Shown here in pieces: positions 455 to 6,161 of a stretch of 6,211 nt of DNA. Origin of the DNA: a bacterium (GTDB taxonomy: Bacteria > CSSED10-310 > JAJRTK01); contig JAJRTK010000070.1 of assembly GCA_024278345.1 (NCBI GenBank), positions 1 to 6,211 of the forward strand, read 5' to 3'. The notes under the pieces are model-generated. The model saw only the letters and a list, made by a program, of their open reading frames with translations, did not search any database and was not told the DNA's origin. The position numbers and the translations under genes were made by a program. The stretch's first letter is position 1. Every line of letters starts with the position of its first letter.

Positions 455-1168
455 TCAGGACACGCGGTTCACTCCGCGGATCTCGCTCCAAGAACCGGGC
501 TTCTCGTGGGACTCGTCCACTTTGTGGCGCAAATCGCGGCCGTCCACAAGATAGACGACGGCTTCGGCCACGTGGGTCGCCTTGTCGGCGAGTCTTTCGA
601 TATTGCGCGCGGCAAGCAAGGCCTCGATCAGCGCTAGCTCCTCCCCGCGGTGTGCCTGGACCCGCTCCAAGACCCGTCTGGTAATGGAGTCTCGCGCCCG
701 ATCCACCCACTGGTCGTCCGCCAACACTTCACTGGCAAGATCGGCCTCACGGAGCAGGTAGGCCCTGATAGCCTTGGACAACATCGCCTGGGCAGCCCGC
801 AACATCTCCTTGAGCTGGTCAAGGATCCAGAGGGGCGACGCCTCGCTGAGATCGAGAAGCTTCCGGCTCAGATTCACGCAAAGGTCACCCATCCGCTCCA
901 GGTCGGTCACCATCCGCAGCGAACAGACCATGACGCGAAGCTGTTCCCGTGGGAGCTTGTAGCCGCTCATGATATCGACCGTCCACTCGCTCAGCTCCCG
1001 CTCCAGGCGGTTCAGATCCCGTTCTTTCTGGAAATTCCGTTCCAGTAGATCGGCGTTTTCGCCCATGACCGGTCCCAGACAAGTCTCGATCATAGCCTCG
1101 ACAAGACCGGCCATTCTGGCAATCCCATCCCGAAGACGACCGGCATCCTTTTCCAACCCGTGCCTCAC
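455..1168 (-). CDS. phoU: Phosphate transport regulator PhoU
   Basis: PhoU is a cytoplasmic, all-helical negative regulator of phosphate uptake and signalling that acts on the Pst transporter and the PhoR kinase. This 237-residue protein has the family's usual length and two-repeat plan. Each half carries the ExxxD metal-cluster motif: E91-R-M-G-D95 within TDLERMGDLCVN, and E191-R-L-A-D195 within ARNIERLADKATHVAE. The start is GTG at 1168, chosen because AGGGAG (1180-1175) sits 6 nt upstream; the gap from the second pstB is 28 nt, the largest in the operon. It is the last gene of the cluster, the usual place for phoU. The C-terminal tail of about 25 residues after the last helix is polar and probably disordered. 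It is the more canonical of the two PhoU-type proteins here. The family call is secure; partner choice is inferred. Confidence 0.95.
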   Translation of the reverse strand: MRHGLEKDAGRLRDGIARMAGLVEAMIETCLGPVMGENADLLERNFQKERDLNRLERELSEWTVDIMSGYKLPREQLRVMVCSLRMVTDLERMGDLCVNLSRKLLDLSEASPLWILDQLKEMLRAAQAMLSKAIRAYLLREADLASEVLADDQWVDRARDSITRRVLERVQAHRGEELALIEALLAARNIERLADKATHVAEAVVYLVDGRDLRHKVDESHEKPGSWSEIRGVNRVS

Positions 1169-1196: not shown

Positions 1197-1976
1197 TCAA
1201 CCGTAACGGCCCTCGATGTAGTCAGCGGTCTCTTTATGCCTCGGCGTCACGAACATTTCGCCCGTGGACCTATGTTCCACGACTTTGCCCATGAGCATGA
1301 AGATGCACTCGTCACTGGCCCGTCGGGCCTGGGCCATATTGTGGGTGACGATGAGAACGGTGTACTCTTCCCGCAGCTCCCAGATGAGCTCTTCCACGGC
1401 TTCGGTCCCGTTGGGGTCGAGAGCCGAGCAGGGTTCGTCCATGAGAAGCACGGCAGGCTTCACCGGCATGAGGCGGGCGATACAGAGTTTCTGTTGCTCC
1501 TCCAGGGAAAGCCCCCCCCCGGGGCTCCCCAGCTTGTCCTTGACACTCTCCCAGAGGAGCACGCGACGGAGGGCCGACTCCGCGATCTCGTCCCCGGCCG
1601 CCTTCGACAAGCGCCCCTTGTCCCGATTGTGGATGCGGTAACCGAAAAGCACATTGTCCCGGATGGAAAGAGGCAGAGGGTTGGGCCTTTGAAAGACCAT
1701 TCCCACCTGCTTCCGCACTTGAAGGAGCTCCACGGCTGGCGCATAGATGTCATTCCCTAGAACATGAACCTTCCCGGCGGTTCGGACGTACCCAAGCCGC
1801 TCGTTGATCCGGTTGATGCAGCGCAAGAAAGTCGATTTTCCACAACCGGATGGACCGATGAGCGACGTGATCATGCCGCCGCGGATCTCTAGATCCACGT
1901 CGAACAAGGCCTGGAACGTGCCGTACCACAGGCTCAGTTTTTGGGTTTTTATGGCAAGAGGCCGTTCTTTATCCAA
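1197..1976 (-). CDS. pstB: Phosphate ABC transporter ATPase, second PstB paralogue with degenerate signature motif
   Basis: Cytoplasmic ATP-binding subunit of the Pst importer, 259 residues, the usual PstB length. Visible motifs: Walker A GPSGCGKST (41-49), Q-loop GMVFQRPNPLP with Q96, Walker B LLMDE with D180 and E181, D-loop SALDP, and H-loop VTHNM with H212. The ABC signature is aberrant: where PstB normally has LSGGQQQRLCIARAL, this protein reads LSLEEQQKLCIARLM (from L156), so the GGQ that contacts the partner's ATP is gone. A Gly-rich linker encoded by a run of nine G (1520-1512) precedes it. The start is TTG at 1976, the only start before the conserved N-terminal strand, with GGAGG 6 nt upstream; it overlaps the preceding pstB by 8 nt. 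It probably works as a heterodimer with that pstB, supplying the catalytically intact Walker/Q/H half-site (inference). The specific role is less certain than the family. Confidence 0.92.
   Translation of the reverse strand: MDKERPLAIKTQKLSLWYGTFQALFDVDLEIRGGMITSLIGPSGCGKSTFLRCINRINERLGYVRTAGKVHVLGNDIYAPAVELLQVRKQVGMVFQRPNPLPLSIRDNVLFGYRIHNRDKGRLSKAAGDEIAESALRRVLLWESVKDKLGSPGGGLSLEEQQKLCIARLMPVKPAVLLMDEPCSALDPNGTEAVEELIWELREEYTVLIVTHNMAQARRASDECIFMLMGKVVEHRSTGEMFVTPRHKETADYIEGRYG
1512..1520 (-). repeat. Nine-base G homopolymer inside second pstB
   Basis: The plus strand shows nine consecutive C (1512-1520), read as GGG GGG GGG (three glycines, about residues 153-155) just before the signature region. 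Such tracts can slip during replication, and a one-base change would truncate the ATPase. The reading frame is intact in this sequence. Confidence 0.8.
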
Positions 1977-2850
1977 AACGTCCCTCCACGTAGGCTCGGG
2001 TCCGGGGGTCCTTCACGTCGCCCGAAAAGATCGCCTCGGTATCGCCAACTTCGACGCACTCGCCCATGAGGAAGAAGGCGGTCCGATCCGCCAGGCGTCG
2101 CGCCTGTTGGACCAGGTTGGTCACCAGGATAATGCTCATCTCCTGGCGAAGGCCTTGGAGCACATCCTCGATCCGCATGGTGGTGACGGGATCGACGGCG
2201 ATGGAAAACTCGTCCAGAAGCAGCAGATCGGGCTCTTGTGACAGGGCCCGGGCAATGGTAAGCCGCTGCTGCTGGCCTCCCGACAGCAGGCTTCCCAAAG
2301 AGTTGAGGCGATCCTTGACTTCGTCCCACAGTGCTGCTCGCTGGAGGCAACGCTCCACGATTTCATCCAGGCGCCGCGGATCCCGGACTCCCGAAAGCCG
2401 CGGAGCCAGCGACACATTGTCGTATACGCTCAGTGGCAGCCCCACGGGAAGCGGGAAAACCACGCCGATCTTCCGCCGCAATGCATAGACATTCCTCCAC
2501 ATCCGGACCTCCCTGCCGCCAAAAAGAATCGATCCCTGGACGCTCATTCCCGGCACGAAGAAGTCCATCCGGTTCAGCGCCCGGAGCAGCGAGGTTTTAC
2601 CCGAGCCCGACGGCCCGATGATCCCAAAGATCTCGTTCTGCCTCACCTCGAAGCTGACATCCCGGAGCACCATCTTCTTCCCGTAACTGATGGAAACGTT
2701 CCGAACCACGAGCTTTGGTGGATCGCCGGCAACCGGGCGGGGCTCGGGCGGCGTGCCAACGGCCCCGGCATCCGTGAGCCCATTTTTTTGGGGGCTTTTT
2801 CTGTTGTCTTGATGGCCGAACCTAGAGAGATGGCCGGAGTCACTTACCAT
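1969..2850 (-). CDS. pstB: Phosphate ABC transporter ATPase, first PstB paralogue with altered Q-loop and H-loop
   Basis: ATP-binding subunit of the Pst importer, 293 residues, about 35-40 longer than usual because of a polar, Pro-rich N-terminal extension (residues 1 to about 45) before the conserved PKLVVRNVSISYG. Motifs: Walker A GPSGSGKTS (79-87), perfect signature LSGGQQQRLTIARAL (from L189), Walker B LLLLDE (D213, E214). Three normally conserved positions differ: the Q-loop reads GVVFPLP, with P133 in place of Gln; the H-loop reads VTNLVQQA, with N245 in place of His; and the D-loop is SIAVD rather than TSALD. The pattern VFPLPVGLPLS recalls a PstB subfamily I have seen in other bacteria (from memory). 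The start is ATG at 2850, overlapping the end of pstA by 7 nt, with GGAG about 9 nt upstream. The upstream in-frame open region to 3189 lies wholly inside pstA and is not coding in this frame. It probably pairs with the second PstB. Confidence 0.92.
   Translation of the reverse strand: MVSDSGHLSRFGHQDNRKSPQKNGLTDAGAVGTPPEPRPVAGDPPKLVVRNVSISYGKKMVLRDVSFEVRQNEIFGIIGPSGSGKTSLLRALNRMDFFVPGMSVQGSILFGGREVRMWRNVYALRRKIGVVFPLPVGLPLSVYDNVSLAPRLSGVRDPRRLDEIVERCLQRAALWDEVKDRLNSLGSLLSGGQQQRLTIARALSQEPDLLLLDEFSIAVDPVTTMRIEDVLQGLRQEMSIILVTNLVQQARRLADRTAFFLMGECVEVGDTEAIFSGDVKDPRTRAYVEGRFG
1982..1987 (-). promoter_or_regulatory. Shine-Dalgarno of second pstB (decides TTG start)
   Basis: GGAGGG at 1987-1982 on the minus strand. 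Its GGAGG core lies 6 nt upstream of the TTG at 1976-1974. It sits inside the end of the upstream pstB, consistent with translational coupling, and justifies the rare TTG start. Confidence 0.75.
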
Positions 2851-3815
2851 TTTTTTCTTCTCCGCAGCACCGTGCGAAAAGCGATGGAGAGGGAGTTCAT
2901 AGCAAGCACAATCCCGATGAGGACCAGGGCGACGCCATAAGGCAGCGCCTCTGGAACGTTGGGGACCTGGGTGGAGATCACGAAAAGATGGAGGGACAAG
3001 GCCATCGTCTCGTCGAAGACGCCCTGGGGCAGAAAAGGCAGAAAAAATGCCGCCCCGGTAAACATGATGGGAGCCGTCTCGCCAGCGGTCCTTGAGACTT
3101 CCAAGATGATCCCCGTGAGAATCCCGCTGAGTGCGTTGGGCAAGACAACGTGGCGAATGGTCTGCCACCGAGTGGCGCCCATATTCCAACAGGCTTCCCG
3201 AAAAGCCATTGGCACTGCCTGAAGCGCTTCCCGCGTGGAAACGATCACCACGGGCAGAGTCATGATTCCCAGGGTCAGGCTCGCCGCCAAAATACTGGTG
3301 CCGAAGCCGAAAAAGAGGACGAAAGCCCCTACTCCGAACAGGGCGTGGACAATAGAGGGAACACCTGCCAAGTTGATGATCGCCAGATTGATGACCCGGG
3401 TCAGCCAGTTGTCAGAGGCATATTCACTGAGATAGATGGCCGCGGCCACACCGATAGGAACGGAAAAGAGCAGAGCCACGGCCACCAGCCAGACCGTCCC
3501 CACAAGCGCGGGAAAGATCCCTCCAGCCGTCATGCCGTTGGAAGGCTCCGTGAAGAGAAACTCCATGGACATGACCGGCCATCCCTTGATGACCAGGAAG
3601 ATCAGGATGACGAAGACCGGCAAGATGAGTAGGAGAGTCATGAGCAGAAAGAGCCAACGAATCAGCCGCTCCACCTTCTGATCCCGCCGGTTGAGCGCGG
3701 AAGCCTCAAACCCGGCCACCTGCCTCTGGCCTCCGCCTCCGCCTCCGGTGGTTCTTGGTGGAAATGCGCCCGCCGACCTCGCTACAATCCGTGATGAGAG
3801 TTCCGGGTCACACAT
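2844..3815 (-). CDS. pstA: Phosphate ABC transporter permease PstA
   Basis: Inner-membrane permease subunit that pairs with PstC to form the phosphate channel. The 323-residue product has about six hydrophobic helices (near 53-77, 101-129, 140-165, 175-195, 229-262, 291-312). It has the cytoplasmic EAA loop REACWNMGATRWQTIRHVVLP (about 206-226), which couples to the PstB ATPases. PstA-typical segments LAGVPSIVHALFG and SRTAGETAPIMFTGAAFF are present. The start is ATG at 3815, preceded by GGTG 5 nt upstream and 4 nt after the pstC stop; a GTG at 3839 would add eight residues and overlap pstC but has weaker support. An N-terminal cytoplasmic tail of about 50 residues precedes the first helix and contains six consecutive glycines (24-29) from a GGC/GGA-type triplet run. 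It ends in a basic RRRKKW tail that overlaps the ATPase start. The assignment is firm. Confidence 0.95.
   Translation of the reverse strand: MCDPELSSRIVARSAGAFPPRTTGGGGGGQRQVAGFEASALNRRDQKVERLIRWLFLLMTLLLILPVFVILIFLVIKGWPVMSMEFLFTEPSNGMTAGGIFPALVGTVWLVAVALLFSVPIGVAAAIYLSEYASDNWLTRVINLAIINLAGVPSIVHALFGVGAFVLFFGFGTSILAASLTLGIMTLPVVIVSTREALQAVPMAFREACWNMGATRWQTIRHVVLPNALSGILTGIILEVSRTAGETAPIMFTGAAFFLPFLPQGVFDETMALSLHLFVISTQVPNVPEALPYGVALVLIGIVLAMNSLSIAFRTVLRRRKKW
2850..2856 (-). other. A7 slippery heptamer at the pstA/pstB junction
   Basis: On the minus strand the end of pstA reads AGA AAA AAA TGG TAA. The seven A (2856-2850) form an A AAA AAA heptamer in the correct zero-frame phase for -1 frameshifting. 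The -1 frame continues directly as ATG GTA AGT, which is pstB. A GGAG sequence (2863-2860) lies just upstream. It may instead be only an A-rich ribosome-binding region; no strong downstream hairpin is evident. Confidence 0.4.
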
Positions 3816-3819
3816 GGTT

Positions 3820-4803
3820 TCACCTTTTCCTGACGCCACGGATCACGAGATCCGCCGTGAGGTTGATGATGAAAGTCACGAGGAATAGAAAAATCCCCAA
3901 GGCAAAAAGTGCCTTGTAATGGTCCGAACCGACCGCCGTTTCCCCTAGCTCCGCGGCGATGGTCGCCGTGAGGGCGCGCACCGAGTCGAAAACGCTGGTG
4001 GGAATGTTGATGGAGTGACCGCTGGCCATGAGCACTGCCATGGTCTCTCCAAAGCCACGGCCCACACCCAGGAGCACCGCAGCCACAAGACCGTTTTTTG
4101 CCGCCGGGAGGACGACCCTGAAGACGACCTGCCAACGGGTGGCACCCAGGGCCTCCGCAGCCTCGCGATAGGTGTCGGGTACCGCTTTGAGCGCGTCTTC
4201 GGCGATGGTGGTCATGATGGGCGCCGCCATGAGTCCAAGAATAATACCCGAATTCAGGACGCTGAGACCCACCGGCACATTGAAAAGATCGATGATCAGC
4301 GGGTTCATGATGCTCAGCCCGATGAACCCCCAAACGACCGAAGGGATCGCCGCCAAGAGCTCCACCAAGACCTTCAGGATCTCCCGAATCCGCCCCGTGG
4401 CAAACTCGGCGATGTAGATTGCCGTCCCCAGCGAAAAGGGGACCGCCAACAGCATGGCCAGCCCCGTAACACTGGCCGTGCCCGCAATCAAGGCCAAGGC
4501 CCCGTACGTAGGGTTGTAGGACGAAGTGGGCGCCCAGCGCGGCGACGTGAAAAACTCGCCCAAGTCCAGGCTACCCGCAATGAATCCGGCCCCCTCCTTC
4601 ATGACAAAGCCAAAGATGCCGAAAATGAAGATGATGGCCGAGACCCCGCCAATGAAGACCAGGATCTCCACTCCTTTGTCAACGTACCAGGCCATCGTCC
4701 GGGCATCGGCATCTTCCGCGAAGCTGGCGGCAACTCCCGCGCCTTCCGCGACTCCAGCGCCTTCCACGGCTCCAGCGACTTCCGCGCTCTCCGGCGATCC
4801 CAT
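3820..4803 (-). CDS. pstC: Phosphate ABC transporter permease PstC
   Basis: Inner-membrane permease partner of PstA, 327 residues. About six hydrophobic helices are visible (near 45-67, 98-124, 144-167, 181-200, 235-258, 297-320). The EAA loop REAAEALGATRWQVVFRVVLP (about 213-233) is the docking site for the ATPases. PstC hallmarks include LLAAIPSVVWGF, GVGRGFGETMAVLMASG and the Asn-rich last helix. The start is ATG at 4803, one nt after the stop of the upstream gene, with AGGAGG 9 nt before it, so translation is probably coupled. The first 40 residues are an unusual Ala/Gly/Glu/Val-rich cytoplasmic tail containing three hexapeptide repeats (EGAGVA-like, residues 7-25), encoded by an 18-bp tandem DNA repeat. 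The next in-frame ATG (4695) lacks a Shine-Dalgarno, so the tail appears genuine. The family call is firm. Confidence 0.95.
   Translation of the reverse strand: MGSPESAEVAGAVEGAGVAEGAGVAASFAEDADARTMAWYVDKGVEILVFIGGVSAIIFIFGIFGFVMKEGAGFIAGSLDLGEFFTSPRWAPTSSYNPTYGALALIAGTASVTGLAMLLAVPFSLGTAIYIAEFATGRIREILKVLVELLAAIPSVVWGFIGLSIMNPLIIDLFNVPVGLSVLNSGIILGLMAAPIMTTIAEDALKAVPDTYREAAEALGATRWQVVFRVVLPAAKNGLVAAVLLGVGRGFGETMAVLMASGHSINIPTSVFDSVRALTATIAAELGETAVGSDHYKALFALGIFLFLVTFIINLTADLVIRGVRKR
4733..4786 (-). repeat. 18-bp tandem repeat x3 in the 5' end of pstC
   Basis: Three adjacent 18-bp units on the plus strand, 4733-4750, 4751-4768 and 4769-4786, share the pattern actcc(a/c)gcgccttcc(g/a)cg with one to a few changes each. 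They are in frame and encode EGAGVA-type hexapeptides near residues 7-25 of PstC. Unit number could vary between strains without breaking the frame. Confidence 0.8.
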
Positions 4804-4804
4804 A

Positions 4805-5887
4805 TCAGCTCGCCTCCTCGCCTCGAAGAGTCTCCATGAGCTCCCGGACTCTGTAGGAAATCTCTTTGTACAACGCCGCGAAGCGCTCCCGGCCTTCCAG
4901 CCCCTTCACCACCTCCTCCAGATCCCATTCCACGACGGCAAGCTCGTAGGGAAGCTTCGAAAGACGAGGTCTCACGTCACCGCAAAAACTGACCAGCACG
5001 TGGAGCTTCGACAGCTCCCGAAAATCGGGTTCGAACCGCCGGGGCCCCTCGTCGCCCAGCTCGATCCCCACGCCGTTCATAAACTCCACAAATCCAAGGG
5101 AAAAGGCCGAAACCTCGCTCCAACCCGCACTGGCATACTTCCCGCTACAAGGATAGGCCTTCCTGGCCGCAAGCTCCGCCATCTTGCTCTGGCACTCGTT
5201 GGTCTCGTCCAGAAAAAGCAACCGATAGACCTTCGGAGCCTTGGTCTCGCCGGTGGCCGTAAAGATCGTCTCTTCGCAAATGTTCTTGGCCTGAGCCTTC
5301 ACCCGGTTGAGGCGGGACAACACGCCCATGAGGGCAAACAGATCCTTGATGGGCATCTCGTGCCGCACCCCCTCCTCCAACAGATCCTGGAACACCTTGT
5401 CGAAAGTGACCTGAAGATGGGAGGCCAGTCCTTTGGTTCCTCGGGCCAGGTCGGGGCTTTTCTCGTAAAAAGAATCCAGCGCCTGGCCAAGGATCTGAAG
5501 AGCCTGTTCTGACAAAAGCTCGATATCCCGCGCCACAAGGGGCGGAACCTCCCGTTCGAGCTGCAACGCCTCCCGGCTAATGGTGACGGCGTAATCCCCC
5601 AGCCTCTCCAGCCCGACATTGAGGCGCAACACCGACGAAACAAACCGCAGGTGACCCGCGCTGGGAAGATGCCGCGCCACAAAAACGTGGCACATCTTGT
5701 CACAGGACCGGACCTGACGATTGATGGGCAAGTCCCCTAGAATCGTGGCGCTGGCCAAATGCCGATCCCGCCTCAAAAGCGCCCGAAGCGACATCTCCAG
5801 AGCCGCCTCCACCTTGGAACCGACCTCCTTGACCGTCGCCATGATCCGCCTGAGGTCCTCCTCGAGCCTTTTTTCGTAGTGAGACAT
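4805..5887 (-). CDS. PhoU-domain protein fused to an inactive LMW-PTP/arsenate reductase-like domain
   Basis: First gene of the operon, 360 residues. Residues 1 to about 215 form a PhoU helical domain: it starts MSHYEKRLEEDL, and a first metal motif E94-R-L-G-D98 sits in LNVGLERLGDYAVTI. The second motif has decayed to N194-R-V-K-A198. Residues about 219-325 match the LMW-PTP/ArsC fold: YRLLFLDETNECQSKMAE replaces the usual VLFVC-x-GN-x-CRS-x-MAE, then SAG (253-255), HVLVSFCGDV and a VVEWDL strand. The catalytic Cys is Asp227 and the phosphate-binding Arg is Gln233, so phosphatase or arsenate reductase chemistry is not expected. Cys232 and Cys302 remain at positions equivalent to Cys15 and Cys82 of S. 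aureus ArsC. The ATG at 5887 matches the usual PhoU N-terminus; the frame stays open to 6076, but that extension is low-complexity and crosses an out-of-frame 19-bp duplication. It is probably a cytosolic regulator of the transporter encoded just downstream (inference). Confidence 0.88.
   Translation of the reverse strand: MSHYEKRLEEDLRRIMATVKEVGSKVEAALEMSLRALLRRDRHLASATILGDLPINRQVRSCDKMCHVFVARHLPSAGHLRFVSSVLRLNVGLERLGDYAVTISREALQLEREVPPLVARDIELLSEQALQILGQALDSFYEKSPDLARGTKGLASHLQVTFDKVFQDLLEEGVRHEMPIKDLFALMGVLSRLNRVKAQAKNICEETIFTATGETKAPKVYRLLFLDETNECQSKMAELAARKAYPCSGKYASAGWSEVSAFSLGFVEFMNGVGIELGDEGPRRFEPDFRELSKLHVLVSFCGDVRPRLSKLPYELAVVEWDLEEVVKGLEGRERFAALYKEISYRVRELMETLRGEEAS
4813..4818 (-). 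promoter_or_regulatory. Shine-Dalgarno of pstC
   Basis: AGGAGG at 4818-4813 on the minus strand, 9 nt before the ATG at 4803, embedded in the last codons of the upstream fusion gene. It fixes the pstC start and implies coupling. Confidence 0.8.
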
Positions 5888-5973: not shown

Positions 5974-6161
5974 CACCACCGCCTTCACGGGCCATGGCCC
6001 CCAAAACCCCGTCAATGGGCAAACCGGGGCTGGGCATCGGGGGCCGCTCTTGTCGGGTGGCCGAACCGATCCCCACATCCAGGGGACCTATCAGATCCGG
6101 TTGACAACATCACCGCTGGGGCAGGCCTCCTTCCCGGCTCCGTGCAGCCCGGAGGGCGCTA

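Follow-up and report, generated by a model that had tools for sequence, protein, structure and literature searches.

The window analysed here is a whole contig of 6211 bases. Along its minus strand lie, in order, a gene encoding PhoU fused to an arsenate reductase (ArsC)-like domain, pstC, pstA, pstB1, pstB2 and a separate, stand-alone phoU (Table 1). The fusion gene starts at ATG 5887 (MSHYEKRL) and stops at 4805; this start was preferred over the mechanical GTG start at 6076 because the homologues share the Met start, mostly as MSHYEERL or MSHLEERL. Upstream of the fusion gene the contig ends after 324 bases, and the only PstS-like match elsewhere in the genome (88% complete) is a single, weak one. 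By the NCBIfam cut-offs, PstC and PstA of the window are canonical Pst permeases. An Rfam scan of the window gave no match and a promoter scan of it stayed near chance level. Positions 1-270 contain degenerate direct repeats with units of 42 and 25 bases and spacings of 155 and 124; the repeat is dispersed and apparently intergenic, with about 40 strong copies scored genome-wide, many of them near contig ends.

Table 1. Features of the window, with the evidence for each
Feature	Position	Strand	Evidence
Whole contig (the window), 6211 bases			
Fusion gene, PhoU plus ArsC-like domain, 360 aa	4805..5887	-	ORF, PhoU Pfam, arsC_pI258, AlphaFold2, homologue starts
PhoU six-helix domain, residues 1-214	5246..5887	-	Structure match to 4q25, column counts
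Dead ArsC/LMW-PTP-fold domain, residues 217-360	4808..5239	-	Structure, profile, dN/dS
Former P-loop, D227-E-T-N-E-C-Q-S234	5186..5209	-	Alignment columns
pstC, permease	3820..4803	-	TIGR02138, 277.5 bits, above cut-off 196.45
pstA, permease	2844..3839	-	TIGR00974, 265 bits, above cut-off 193.45; overlaps the end of pstC
pstB1, start codon uncertain	about 1969..2742	-	Motifs; TIGR00972, 280.5 bits, below cut-off 343.2
pstB2	1197..1976	-	Motifs; TIGR00972, 316.6 bits, below cut-off 343.2
Separate stand-alone phoU	455..1168	-	phoU_full, 128.5 bits, just under 130.25

Relatives of the fusion were gathered first from whole genomes and then from the named collection, in which the best 80 of a longer list, all full-length, were taken. 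These 80, the window protein and the proteins of G003, G179 and G390 make up the 84-protein alignment used below. The search patterns were taken from the PhoU half, so the sample is confined to one clade, and the 84 members share ancestry and are not 84 independent observations. The best 80 relatives come from Pseudomonadota (38), Planctomycetota (11), Gemmatimonadota (8), Acidobacteriota (7), Rhodothermota (4), Myxococcota (3) and Bacteroidota (1), with 8 unassigned. The carriers include Accumulibacter and Thiodiazotropha (Pseudomonadota) and Dechloromonas, uncultured but important bacteria that are polyphosphate accumulators (Accumulibacter, Dechloromonas) or animal symbionts (Thiodiazotropha).

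In the AlphaFold2 model, residues 1-214 superpose on Pseudomonas aeruginosa PhoU (4q25) with a Z score of 29.7 and an rmsd of 1.4 over 209 residues. This half gives a PhoU Pfam match of 58 bits and an NCBIfam phoU_full E value of about 1e-32; the 113 bits of the fusion do not reach the curated phoU_full cut-off of 130.25, which is a database criterion and not a biochemical one. The fusion has in common with PhoU (TIGR02135/PF01895; 4q25) the six-helix fold, the first ExxxD motif and placement in a Pst operon. It differs from ordinary PhoU in its extra C-terminal domain, in an altered second ExxxD motif and in the position of the gene, which lies between pstS and pstC whereas ordinary phoU follows pstB. 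Of the two ExxxD metal motifs, the first (E94-D98) is intact in 84/84 proteins. At the second, both residues are lost in the window (N194..A198); in the family, position 194 is mostly Glu (37) or Lys (29), and position 198 is Asp in 68 of the 84. The extra PhoU encoded in the window may compensate for the lost residues.

The mean pLDDT of the AlphaFold2 model is 95.9 for the whole fusion and 95.1 for residues 217-360 alone. This second domain matches ArsC structures with Z scores of 16.6-17.0 (Cg_ArsC1', 17.0; Cg_ArsC2 and pI258 ArsC, 16.8-16.9), and the whole-fusion model matches ArsC with Z 16.8. At the sequence level, the domain alone matches arsC_pI258 (TIGR02691) with E=7e-7, and a profile built from 81 relatives finds SynArsC (2l17) in the PDB with E=7.7e-13. 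Pfam did not detect the second domain in the window, and PF01451 is reached at E<=0.001 by 39 of the 81 relatives. Both by sequence and by predicted structure, the likeness of the domain to ArsC is beyond chance. The original prediction, that PhoU is fused to a domain following the LMW-PTP/ArsC plan strand by strand, therefore agrees with the modelled structure, which gave this fold and not another. The interval given for it (4805-5542) corresponds to residues 116-360; the reductase-like domain (5239-4808) does lie inside, and the interval takes in the second half of PhoU as well.

The domain shares its predicted fold with the ArsC reductases (SynArsC, 2l17; Bacillus subtilis ArsC, 1jl3; pI258 ArsC), and the P-loop context is similar too, reading FVCKRNSCRSQMAE in SynArsC and FVDEDNSxxSQMAE in the family. 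Trp321, invariant in the family, aligns with a Trp of SynArsC. In contrast with the ArsC reductases, the domain has Asp in place of the catalytic Cys, lacks the Arg, the redox Cys and the acid DP loop, and is joined to PhoU. The P-loop of true ArsC, FLCTGNSCRSQMAE, is replaced in the window by FLDETNECQSKMAE; when LFLDETNECQS is set against FLCTGNSCRS, Cys becomes Asp227 and Arg becomes Gln233, which reproduces both the loop and the numbering first proposed. Across the alignment Asp227 is kept in 81/84 proteins and Asn230 in 62/84. Position 233 is variable (Leu 35, Ala 15, Gln 5, Lys 5, Arg 4), so a survey of the two altered positions finds conservation of Asp227 but not of Gln233. CX5R occurs in 0/84. 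Loops resembling the VDEKN variant that the original prediction placed in other phyla are present, as FIDEKND (L132) and FVDEKND (L150).

Of the remaining catalytic residues, Cys232 of the window stands at the position of the second ArsC Cys, and Cys302 aligns with Cys80 of SynArsC. The redox relay is not conserved, because only the window's protein, of the 84, has Cys at position 302, and the next redox position, 304, is never Cys (Asp304 in the window). After Trp321 the window reads WDLEEVV where SynArsC has WQLEDP, and the general-acid DP loop is absent. With neither CX5R nor a DP loop, the domain would not be classed as a low-molecular-weight protein tyrosine phosphatase. Retention of the fold without its chemistry, proposed for the single protein, is thus seen family-wide. 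Binding of phosphate or arsenate in the old pocket is unlikely, judging from the residues there, because Arg has been lost and Asp gained. Across phyla, Trp321, Phe225, Gly213, Ala237 and Leu350 are invariant and Asp227 is nearly so. Purifying selection acts on the reductase-like half, whose dN/dS in close pairs is about 0.05-0.33, looser than PhoU and well below 1.

Two quick trees bear on the origin of the family. In a tree with 58 stand-alone PhoUs, the PhoU halves of the fusions group together as a single clade (SH-aLRT 98), and the reductase halves do likewise in a tree with six true ArsCs (SH-aLRT 99). These sequence trees are consistent with a single origin of the fusion. One locus was excluded from the counts (G445; L081, at about 2360), since its fusion ORF gives way in the middle of the domain to a histidine-kinase ORF that is read in a different frame; this is probably a misassembly of the metagenome-assembled genome, a natural deletion being the other option.

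The fusion gene is adjacent to pstC in 83/84 loci, and in the remaining one (L202) the contig ends. The order pstS-fusion-pstC-pstA-pstB1-pstB2 is almost fixed across the relatives, with pstS in nearly all of them; in G179 and L157 the fusion precedes pstS. No other PhoU is found in the locus in 63 of 65 complete operons, that is, loci with a well-matched pstB2, although some of these contigs end soon after pstB2. In this system the fusion therefore replaces phoU; the window, with its additional phoU after pstB2, is one of the two exceptions. In the tree this stand-alone phoU has a long branch. Genes that recur nearby encode proteins resembling, as read from representative sequences, PhoR, PhoB, a Na/Pi cotransporter, a porin and polyphosphate kinase. 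The original prediction noted that the transporter also admits arsenate; a link with arsenate is not supported, as no ars genes recur among the neighbourhood clusters of the fusion loci.

Both PstBs of the operon are altered, and in a complementary manner, in 66/66 loci that show the two genes, as far as each motif could be read. In the family, PstB1 retains LSGGQQQRL, but its Q-loop Gln is replaced by Pro and its switch His by Asn; in the window it has the Q-loop FPLPVGLP, DEFSIAVDP and the switch TN. PstB2 keeps FQRPNP and the switch TH but has the signature LSLE(E/Q/A)QQKL; the window protein has FQRPNPLP, TH, and LSLEEQQKL in place of LSGGQQQRL. Judged by these motifs, the pair departs from canonical Pst, in which PstB has both ATP sites complete. 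By the logic of ABC heterodimers, the complete site would combine Walker A/B of PstB2 with LSGGQ of PstB1. We infer from these motifs, and by analogy, that PstB1 and PstB2 would pair as a heterodimer in which one ATP site works and the other is degenerate. A study on TM287/288-type exporters describes heterodimers with one degenerate ATP site (PMC5216877). As in TM287/288 and BmrCD, one subunit of the PstB pair has an altered signature and its partner altered catalytic-loop residues; unlike them, the pair sits in a Pst importer with separate PstC and PstA and a periplasmic PstS. Tandem pstB1 and pstB2 of Enterococcus faecalis are likewise adjacent and have non-overlapping roles, but both proteins keep their motifs (PMC12096839), whereas the PstBs of the fusion operon each lack a complementary set. 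Neither the substitution of phoU within a conserved six-gene operon nor the complementary degeneration of the PstBs was part of the original prediction.

One further locus (L215, G124:C249:12000-26000) has the same asymmetric pair of PstBs alongside an ordinary phoU, the fusion being absent, in the order pstS-pstC-pstA-pstB1-pstB2-phoU. The asymmetry of PstB and the fusion are therefore separable, and an asymmetric ATPase needs no dead domain. Matches to the PstB1 DNA marker in G173, G175 and G270 proved to be unrelated sequences.

How PstSCAB informs PhoU and PhoR about phosphate has long been an open question. We lean, with modest confidence, towards the explanation that a distinct and widespread Pst variant has the fusion as its PhoU subunit, the dead domain serving as a non-enzymatic docking or regulatory module, as sequence and models suggest. 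An ArsC-type reductase domain would have been fused once to PhoU, would then have lost the catalytic Cys and the anion-binding Arg, and would have been retained afterwards as a non-enzymatic module. The PhoU part would dock on the transporter ATPases and on PhoR, as in Escherichia coli, where both PstB and PhoR are interaction partners of PhoU and PhoR receives the signal from PhoU (PMC4423584). We infer that the dead domain docks on the PstB1-PstB2 heterodimer, adding a surface that fits it or that positions PhoU there; the state of the transporter would in this way be coupled to uptake and Pho signalling. Against this explanation, a two-hybrid study of Staphylococcus aureus PhoU found no interaction with PstB or PhoR (PMC11705898). 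The asymmetric PstB pair that occurs without a dead domain in G124 also counts against it, and the separate PhoU of the window makes the division of labour between two PhoUs ambiguous.

Additionally, the strictly kept Asp might point to ligand or metal binding instead of pure scaffolding. The domain would then be a sensor, with the Asp227/Asn230 loop binding a cation or a phosphorylated metabolite, or with Asp227 itself phosphorylated; PTS IIB domains have a similar fold and are phosphorylated on Cys. That Asp227 and Asn230 are kept while position 233 is free to vary is in keeping with this, as are the acidic residues common at 228-229. With Arg lost and Asp gained, anion binding is disfavoured, however, and the column counts show no conserved partner acid and no Lys/Thr typical of receiver domains, so that we regard a sensor as rather unlikely. 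A structural role inside PhoU alone, in which the domain enlarges or dimerises PhoU independently of the transporter, is compatible with the conservation and the fold, and PhoU proteins of S. aureus do homodimerise (PMC11705898); the fusion is tied almost without exception to a single Pst subtype, the one whose PstBs are asymmetric, and this suggests a transporter-specific role instead, making the purely structural one improbable. Finally, the reductase half has changed more quickly than PhoU, and mean column identity is 41% in the domain against 50% in the whole protein, as might be expected if the fused reductase were a neutral leftover of a decaying enzyme. The low dN/dS, the near or full invariance of Asp227, Trp321, Phe225 and Leu350, the high-confidence prediction of a full-length fold and the persistence of the domain across phyla in about 80 operons speak against such a relic, which we consider highly implausible.

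Returning to the docking or regulatory module, a bolder and more tentative version would have a single working ATP site governed by the pseudo-arsenate-reductase PhoU, the degenerate site and the dead domain together possibly forming a phosphate gauge. The operon would represent a naturally fixed asymmetric Pst complex, with a predicted PstB heterodimer in which one ATP site works, and with an additional handle on PhoU; such a system lets each ATP site be mutated separately. The fusion itself would be a pseudoenzyme recruited into nutrient signalling. The suspicion that the architecture is widespread and undescribed is borne out by its presence in many phyla and by a search of the open-access literature (subscription papers and preprints being outside its scope), which yielded no paper describing either PhoU fused to a reductase or PstBs paired asymmetrically. 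Comparative genomics of Accumulibacter describes Pst and PhoU as ordinary PstSCAB/PhoU (PMC11131965). The fusion operon is apparently an undescribed, widespread version of a known phosphate-sensing system.

No close homologue with an intact CX5R was found that would make the window's copy a decayed enzyme. One fusion of PhoU to an intact ArsC, with CRHNAARS and the redox Cys, does exist in a Pst operon (G136; L075, 4175-5326). It was considered as a living ancestor and rejected, its congeners having arsC next to phoU, directly after it, with a stop between them. Because the congeners carry phoU and arsC as separate genes, this fusion is, on sequence comparison, recent, species-level and independent of the dead-domain family, and it illustrates how PhoU-ArsC fusions can arise.
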